DNA from: Flavobacteriaceae bacterium
Lineage (GTDB): Bacteria; Bacteroidota; Bacteroidia; Flavobacteriales; Flavobacteriaceae
Direction: 5' to 3'
Assembly (NCBI GenBank): GCA_018402205.1
Contig: JAGYIX010000003.1
Span: forward strand, 124,001 to 188,000
DNA length: 64,000 bases
The notes under the pieces are model-generated. The model did no database searches. It saw nothing but the letters and a program-made list of their open reading frames with translations, and had not been told where the DNA came from. Shown one piece after another: positions 58,233 to 60,061 of this stretch. The position numbers and the translations under genes were made by a program. The stretch's first letter is position 1. Each line of letters begins with the position of its first letter.

Positions 58233-59086
58233 AAAAACATTTTCTCGATACTACTAACTAAAATACCCTCGGCGCCATTTTCTTTTAGCTGTTCAATAAC
58301 CTCCCAAAAGGTATGTTCTTCAATTACCGTGTGCACAGAAACCCAGTTTTCGTTGGCCAATGGAAGCACACTAGGGCTTCGCATGCCCGGAAGAAGCCTA
58401 ATTACAGCTTCTAAACGATCTTTTGGCACATTCATTAAAACGTATTTATGACCTCTGGCTCTTAGTACGCCTCGTAATCTAAATAAGAAATCAGCTACTC
58501 GTTCATCTTCAGAATCAACTACAGGCGAAAGGGCCAAAACGGCCTGACTTTTAAGAAGTACTTCTACTTCTTTAAGATTGTTTTTAAACAAGGTACTTCC
58601 GCTACTAACTATATCACATACTGCATCAGACAATCCAATATTAGGCGCTATTTCAACAGAACCGTTGATGACATGAATGTCTGCTTTTATGCCCTTTTCA
58701 ATTAGAAATCGCTGAACGGTATTGGGGTAAGAAGTAGCAATTCGCTTTTGACTTAAATCATTTATAGATTCGTAACGTGTGCCCTTAGGTACCGCAATAG
58801 AAACCCTGCATTTTGAAAAGCCTAATTGCTCAATAACGGGAATGTGATCGCCTTTTTCTAGGAGTAAATTTTCACCAATAATGGCAAGGTCTACAACCCC
58901 GTCTTTCAAATAATTTGGAATATCTCCGTTTCTGAGGTAGTAGACCTCTAAGGGATAGGTATGAGACTGTACCTTTAGTTGATCTTTACCATTAAACAAA
59001 GAAATACCCGCCTCTTTGAGCAGGGAGATCGAATCTTCGTGAAGCCTGCCTGACTTCTGAATCGCAATTTTTAATCGTTCTTTCAT
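58229..59086 (-). CDS. hisG: ATP phosphoribosyltransferase (long form)
   Basis: LKIAIQKSGRLHEDSISLLKEAGI, VDLAIIGENLLLE, DIVSSGSTLFKNNLKEVEVL. Confidence 0.97.
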   Translation of the reverse strand: MKERLKIAIQKSGRLHEDSISLLKEAGISLFNGKDQLKVQSHTYPLEVYYLRNGDIPNYLKDGVVDLAIIGENLLLEKGDHIPVIEQLGFSKCRVSIAVPKGTRYESINDLSQKRIATSYPNTVQRFLIEKGIKADIHVINGSVEIAPNIGLSDAVCDIVSSGSTLFKNNLKEVEVLLKSQAVLALSPVVDSEDERVADFLFRLRGVLRARGHKYVLMNVPKDRLEAVIRLLPGMRSPSVLPLANENWVSVHTVIEEHTFWEVIEQLKENGAEGILVSSIEKMFL

Positions 59087-59091
59087 GCCTT

Positions 59092-59130
59092 AAAAAATTA
59101 AGGCCCGAATGAGAAACTCAAACGGGCCTT
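59092..59130 (-). terminator. Attenuator terminator hairpin upstream of hisG
   Basis: Minus strand AAGGCCCG-TT-TGAG-TTT-CTCA-TT-CGGGCCTT followed by AATTTTTTA, ending a few nt before hisG ATG. Confidence 0.9.
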
Positions 59131-59154
59131 TAGTGAATATCAAAAACAACACCA

Positions 59155-59208
59155 TTAACTCGCCTGAGCGCAGTAAAAAAAATGATGATGTGCGTGAATC
59201 ATAAACAT
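59155..59208 (-). CDS. His operon leader peptide MFMIHAHHHFFYCAQAS
   Basis: ATG TTT ATG ATT CAC GCA CAT CAT CAT TTT TTT TAC TGC GCT CAG GCG AGT TAA on minus strand; four His in five codons, upstream of a terminator and hisG. Confidence 0.88.
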   Translation of the reverse strand: MFMIHAHHHFFYCAQAS

Positions 59209-59245: not shown

Positions 59246-60061
59246 TTAATTATTACCTAAAATTAAGGGCAGGCCACTTTCGCCAGAACCAACTATAACA
59301 ATCTTGCTATTGGGTGATTCTGAAAGCTTAATAGTGGCATCTATACCTTTGTCTTGTAGGATTTTATCGGTTAGTGATGCACTTAAAATAAGATTTGCAT
59401 CAGCCTTTCCCCTTGCCTCAATGCGTTGACGCTGGGCTTCTTTATCAGCAGTTACCAGCCTAAATTCATATTCTAATGTCTCTTGTTCTTGCTTTAATTT
59501 CTTTTCAATAGCCTCTCGTATAGTAGGTGGCAGGGTGACATCTCTAACCAATATTTCATTTAACTGTATATACTGGTCTTCTACATATATTTTGGTCTCG
59601 GCAAATATTTCTTGCTGAATAGCGTCACGTTTAGACGAATATAGTTGCTCTGGAGTGTATCTACCAACCACGCTGCGTGCTGCAGACCGAATAGCCGGAA
59701 GCAAAATACGATTCACATACTGCTCGCTCTTTTCTTGATGCAACTTTCCTAGTGACTCAAAAGTAGGTTGAAACCAGGCAGAGGCATCAATTTGAATTTC
59801 AAGTCCGTTTGAGGAAAGAACCTTCATTTTCTCAAATAACTCTTGCTGACGCACTTCGTAAATAAATACGCGGTTCCATGGGGCTACAACATGAAAACCC
59901 TCTCCTAGTGGTGCTTCGTCAGTAACTACCCCTCCGCCAAAAGTTTTGTACAATACGCCTGCCTGTCCAGATCCAATGGTAATAGCAGATTTAGAAATTA
60001 GAATTACCAAGACAAAAAATCCGAGTAATCCAGGTAATAAATATTTAGGTAATCTTTCCAT
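59246..60061 (-). CDS. Prohibitin/SPFH (band 7) family protein
   Basis: N-terminal TM, GSGQAGVLYKTFGGGV..LGEGFHVVAPWNRVFIYEVR, RSVVGRYTPEQLYSSKRDAIQQEI. Confidence 0.92.
   Translation of the reverse strand: MERLPKYLLPGLLGFFVLVILISKSAITIGSGQAGVLYKTFGGGVVTDEAPLGEGFHVVAPWNRVFIYEVRQQELFEKMKVLSSNGLEIQIDASAWFQPTFESLGKLHQEKSEQYVNRILLPAIRSAARSVVGRYTPEQLYSSKRDAIQQEIFAETKIYVEDQYIQLNEILVRDVTLPPTIREAIEKKLKQEQETLEYEFRLVTADKEAQRQRIEARGKADANLILSASLTDKILQDKGIDATIKLSESPNSKIVIVGSGESGLPLILGNN

Follow-up and report, generated by a model that had tools for sequence, protein, structure and literature searches.

The region directly upstream of hisG in the window (the whole stretch of Flavobacteriaceae DNA that was analysed, 64,000 nucleotides long) is very probably a ribosome-mediated transcription attenuator of the his operon. 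A short leader ORF with a run of histidine codons is followed by two mutually exclusive RNA pairings, an antiterminator and a terminator, and the parts, their spacing and their conservation are directly visible in the leaders compared; from these we infer the regulation of the operon in this genome.

Architecture of the his leader

The leader and the genes behind it are arranged as follows, in the order of transcription.

59220-59213, minus strand: Bacteroidetes -7 promoter box TAAATTTG, at -12 to -5 of the predicted start 59208
59208-59155, minus strand: leader ORF MFMIHAHHHFFYCAQAS, 17 codons plus TAA (ATG 59208-59206, TAA 59157-59155)
59169-59157, minus strand: segment 2, the 5' strand of the antiterminator, GCUCAGGCG-A-GUU, overlapping the final leader codons and the stop
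59154-59131, minus strand: inner hairpin enclosed by the antiterminator, weakly conserved
59130-59100, minus strand: terminator hairpin, -20.4 kcal/mol, z -7.7, with arms AAGGCCCG (59130-59123) and CGGGCCTT (59107-59100)
59128-59116, minus strand: segment 3, GGC-C-CGUUUGAGU, common to antiterminator and terminator
59099-59092, minus strand: tail AATTTTTT after the terminator stem, with the U-run TTTTTT at 59097-59092
59086-58229, minus strand: hisG, first gene of the operon, ATG at 59086
58232-52107, minus strand: remaining his operon, with a hisD-hisC fusion, hisNB, hisH, hisA, hisF and hisIE in this order
58232-55893, minus strand: the hisD-hisC fusion, one ORF of 779 aa

The hisG, hisDC and hisNB genes were identified by Pfam, and the other his genes were named from their sequences. 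Upstream of the leader, a Band_7/SPFH gene on the minus strand ends with its stop at 59246. ORFs of HisDC size occupy the same place in L002 and L004 (779 aa) and in L003 (819 aa), and separate ORFs are found in L006, L007 and L018. An earlier sequence-only reading had placed the parts of the leader exactly, as rereading of the sequence confirmed, for example for CTCAGGCG at 59168-59161 and CGTTTGAG at 59124-59117.

The leader ORF contains four histidine codons (CAC, then CAT CAT CAT), in a run that reads CAC GCA CAT CAT CAT. It is the sole ATG-started ORF of 8-30 codons with an HHH motif on either strand of the 64-kb window, and mononucleotide shuffles yield a mean of 0.25 such ORFs per window. 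The TAnnTTTG promoter box of F. psychrophilum is described as spanning -12 to -5 (PMC9723704), and by this rule the predicted transcription start is therefore 59208, the A of the leader ATG. A start mapped downstream of this base had been named in advance as evidence against the attenuator; none is predicted there. Of the 81 Flavobacteriaceae leaders, 69 have a box of the form TAnnTT(T/C)(G/A) whose end lies 4-10 nt upstream of the leader ATG, compared with 8 of 460 control ORFs (at least 120 codons long, from the same loci and the window). The gap between box and ATG is most commonly 7 nt, predicting a 5' UTR of 3 nt, and in a second group of leaders (Lutibacter, Kordia, Gaetbulibacter and others) the box lies about 20 nt further upstream. 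The leader ORF is thus predicted to be probably leaderless or nearly so. This placement looks to be under selection, because only 5.5% of F. psychrophilum mRNAs are given as leaderless (PMC9723704).

Between the leader ORF and the first structural gene, a hairpin followed by a U-run predicts intrinsic termination. Its stem contains a 2x2 internal loop and is separated from the U-run by AA, and the hairpin is not among the terminators listed by a simple scan. The antiterminator consists of GCUCAGGCG and GUU paired with GGC and CGUUUGAGU. It had been proposed as a helix of 8 bp whose partner overlaps the 5' arm and loop of the terminator; the pairing and the overlap hold, with segment 3 shared by both structures, and the helix proves longer, at 12 bp with one A/C mismatch around the inner hairpin. 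The antiterminator segment folds at -18.5 kcal/mol (z -2.9; whole leader z -4.6), and of 2000 synonymous recodings of the leader, 33 reached the energy observed for the antiterminator. Taken by itself, the window sequence provides moderate evidence for the antiterminator; a single sequence is suggestive only, and therefore the comparison across relatives decides.

Conservation within Flavobacteriaceae

The comparison covered 81 leaders, that of the window and those of 80 hisG loci from other genomes of the family. The check on close relatives that the sequence-only reading proposed came out in its favour: in all 80 other loci a leader ORF, 14-19 codons long, precedes the hairpin, and three of these loci have weak histidine runs. 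Histidine, the end product of the operon, is encoded by a tandem codon run (HHH or HHHH) in 76 of the 81 leaders, and the clearest exceptions are L055, L057 and L061. L057 and L055 keep the competing hairpins with few histidine codons and one tryptophan (MKKQWLHFHNFLNAVKR, MIYIWLHHSKVKPVKR). In L012 and L022, GC-rich palindromic repeats (like ATTCCCGCGAAGGCGGGAAT) lie between the terminator and hisG and push the two about 140 nt apart.

Segment 2 of the family mostly reads GCUCARGCG-A-GGU and covers the final leader codons and the stop; its partner, ACC-CGUUUGAGC, lies within the 5' arm and loop of the terminator. When the RNA from behind the histidine codons to segment 3 is folded, the antiterminator is the minimum-free-energy structure in 81 of 81 leaders, and the median energies are -18.5 kcal/mol for the antiterminator and -17.4 kcal/mol for the terminator. 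What is conserved in the leader tail appears to be the RNA and not the peptide, because 71 of 75 leaders use GCG as their penultimate, alanine codon (in the hisG genes of these loci, GCG makes up 13.6% of the alanine codons). In the last codon AG is retained as the amino acid alternates between arginine and serine, and in L025, L028 and L046 CTTAG replaces CTCAG, so that the peptide stops early and the RNA pairing is retained.

Covariation in both hairpins had been proposed as a check, and it divides between them. The terminator pairs covary within the family (0 of 500 shuffles), and the antiterminator helix is nearly invariant there and gave no significant result in the shuffle test, so that its support rests on other lineages. 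RNAalifold on a MAFFT alignment of all 81 leaders did not return the antiterminator, probably owing to gaps and outliers, and single-sequence folds with pair counts were used in place of its consensus; the pair counts lend weak support to the inner hairpin.

Ribosome position and proposed mechanism

The distance from the last histidine codon of the run to the first paired base is 12-17 nt in 76 of 81 leaders, most commonly 15 or 16 nt. With a ribosome footprint of the size assumed from E. coli, the first paired base of segment 2 would sit just past the front of a ribosome stalled on the histidine codons. The stop codon of the leader lies directly 3' of the antiterminator 5' strand in the family. 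In the 80 leaders that have a histidine run, a modelled footprint at the last histidine codon, with segment 4 not yet made, leaves about 11 bp of pairing between segments 2 and 3, and at least 6 bp in all 80, while a footprint at the stop codon leaves 6 bp in none. In these computations, the antiterminator is freed by a stalled ribosome and covered by one at the stop, and it excludes the terminator. The earlier reading of the leader as a ribosome-mediated attenuator thus gains support from the competing antiterminator of minimum free energy, the fixed spacing of the histidine codons and the stop directly behind.

The following course of events is proposed. Transcription would begin at the leader ATG or a few bases away from it, and a ribosome would load on the leaderless or almost leaderless 5' end and translate the ORF. 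When charged His-tRNA is short, the ribosome would stall on the histidine codons with its front edge just before GCUCAGGCG, and the freed GCUCAGGCG would pair with segment 3 (CGUUUGAGU) ahead of the synthesis of segment 4; with segments 2 and 3 paired, no terminator would form and RNA polymerase would continue into hisG. When His-tRNA is plentiful, the ribosome would reach the UAA and cover segment 2, allowing segments 3 and 4 to form the terminator, and transcription in the cell would be expected to halt before hisG, giving the operon its response to histidine. In the full transcript at equilibrium the terminator is favoured even with a stalled ribosome, and the model therefore needs co-transcriptional kinetics. 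Classic attenuator models likewise depend on such kinetics.

Alternative explanations

The same antiterminator could instead serve translational control, in which the hairpin mainly blocks access of ribosomes to the hisG start and is opened by histidine starvation. The gap of only 9-10 nt between the end of the hairpin and the hisG ATG in the window and in L002, together with the AA that interrupts the U-run, would suit such a role. However, the distance from hairpin to hisG has a median of 38 nt and a maximum of 243 nt in the family, and hairpin and U-run are retained over this range. Blocking of the hisG start is thereby excluded as a general function: in L012, L022 and L054 the terminator persists though hisG lies 139-243 nt further downstream. 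As the main function translational control is improbable; as an addition to attenuation in this genome, occlusion of hisG is possible.

A T-box or riboswitch, in which the RNA would sense uncharged tRNA or histidine directly and the ORF would be incidental, might be suspected from a structured 5' element that matches nothing in Rfam, and from L057, which retains the RNA despite few histidine codons. The absence of a match applies equally to the T-box and to any riboswitch, the conserved link to histidine is a codon run at a fixed distance from segment 2, and the RNA sequences differ in other families, which leaves this explanation a very slight probability. Equally hard to credit is an unregulated, constitutive promoter-proximal terminator behind an ORF that is rich in histidine by chance. 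In its favour, the regulation of the his operon is deduced here from sequence comparison; against it stands the conservation over 81 leaders and in several families of Bacteroidia. Ribosome-mediated attenuation accordingly remains the preferred explanation.

Leaders in other Bacteroidota lineages

The hisG gene is present in 258 of 300 genomes of the phylum, and upstream regions were compared from 60 hisG genomes (12 from within the family, 28 from elsewhere in the class and 20 from other classes). All 12 members of the family have a His-rich leader ORF, as do nearly all members of the class; among more distant lineages, such ORFs occur in some families. The pairing sequences differ between lineages: GGUAGGCU/AGCUUACC in family f4, GGCAGGUUU/AGGCUUGCC in f8, GAGGUAG or CAGGUAG with CUACCU in f5, CGCCGG/CCGGCG in f34, and GUGUCGG/CCGGCAC in f16. 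Several other Bacteroidota families thus retain the logic of attenuation with unrelated pairing sequences. In a swap test over 12 lineage representatives, the summed energy of the cognate pairings (-203.5 kcal/mol) was reached in none of 20,000 permutations, in which the permuted pairings had a mean of -146.2 kcal/mol (sd 11.3). This permutation was preferred to ranking cognate against non-cognate terminator arms one by one, which is weak because relatives share arms.

Some leaders depart from this arrangement. In f3 (L119, L121, L122, L124, L126, L133 and L138) and in part of f8 (L129, L130, L132 and L137), His-rich leader ORFs precede hisG with no convincing intrinsic terminator, and in most of these the last histidine codons and the stop form, or directly adjoin, a short but strong hairpin, as in L133 (AUCACCAC-CAU-GUGGUGAU). 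They possibly represent a variant based on Rho or on pausing. In two genomes of f5, the leader ORF follows immediately on the end of a tRNA-Phe gene (257-330 in L118; 249-322, minus strand, in L115), and the leader may therefore be transcribed from the tRNA promoter.

Most of the phylum might regulate the synthesis of histidine through leader-peptide attenuation, its leader ORFs starting at the 5' end or a few bases from it, with f3 and part of f8 forming a second class in which a hairpin at the histidine codons takes the place of the intrinsic terminator, perhaps with Rho or pausing; this generalization is tentative, and we consider it rather doubtful. Bacteroidota do not use Shine-Dalgarno initiation, and if the generalization is true, leader ORFs near the 5' end would allow fast loading of ribosomes in such a phylum.

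Comparison with known systems

Attenuation is a long-established mode of control for his operons, and the his leader described here is a conserved example of it rather than a switch of a novel type. It shares with hisL of E. coli and Salmonella the His-rich leader ORF, the alternative hairpins, the terminator before hisG and the logic of control. The E. coli hisL peptide has 18 aa with seven histidines (PMC3896937). In contrast to these seven, 3-4 tandem histidine codons are found here; the leader ORF is predicted to be nearly leaderless behind a Bacteroidetes promoter, and the antiterminator segment lies on the final leader codons and the stop. The covariance model of His_leader (RF00514) does not match the leader at the gathering threshold nor at E values up to 5, the Bacteroid-trp (RF01692) and T-box models do not match it, and Rfam scans of the window, ten related loci and the trpE locus gave no match.

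In the family itself, hisG of F. psychrophilum has been listed with a structured 5' element, conserved in other genera of Flavobacteriaceae and likewise without an Rfam hit (Guérin et al. 2021; PMC9723704). It concerns the same gene and family, and it may be the same RNA. The term "unannotated" in the sequence-only reading holds for Rfam, and not for the literature, given that 2021 report. Leader-peptide attenuation was proposed there from clues upstream of amino-acid operons (PMC9723704), whereas for hisG the main text gives neither a leader peptide nor an alternative pairing. As far as the literature searched shows, the additions to this prior art comprise the leader peptide, the alternative pairing, the pairing sequences exchanged between lineages and the predicted near-leaderless start.

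Bacteroid-trp RNA (RF01692, Weinberg 2010) is a putative attenuator of a Bacteroidetes amino-acid operon (PMC2864571, PMC6414381), for trp rather than his, and the trpE leader of this genome also falls below the RF01692 cut-off. That leader (L173, 781-900) reads MLKNQFISKWWSWSTFRR; a -7 box, TATATTTG, lies 5 nt upstream of its ATG, and the ORF is followed by a terminator, GCCTGTC-ATCAC-GACAGGC-TTTTTT. No comparable leader was found in the nearest few hundred bases upstream of leuA in this genome. In Sinorhizobium meliloti, the attenuator transcript rnTrpL starts at the ATG of its leader ORF (PMC7298713), but this is an alphaproteobacterial trp system, and the his-leader start here is predicted rather than mapped.

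Attenuation in bacteria has reportedly also been the subject of a comparative study by Lopatovskaya et al. in 2010. Beside these systems, the present leader offers a precise and testable model for a Flavobacteriaceae element that was previously noted but unexplained, and extends His-leader attenuation over several Bacteroidota families that lack an Rfam model, with a natural set of co-varying pairs. Its near-leaderless ORF would also provide a clean place to study initiation in Bacteroidota without Shine-Dalgarno sequences.
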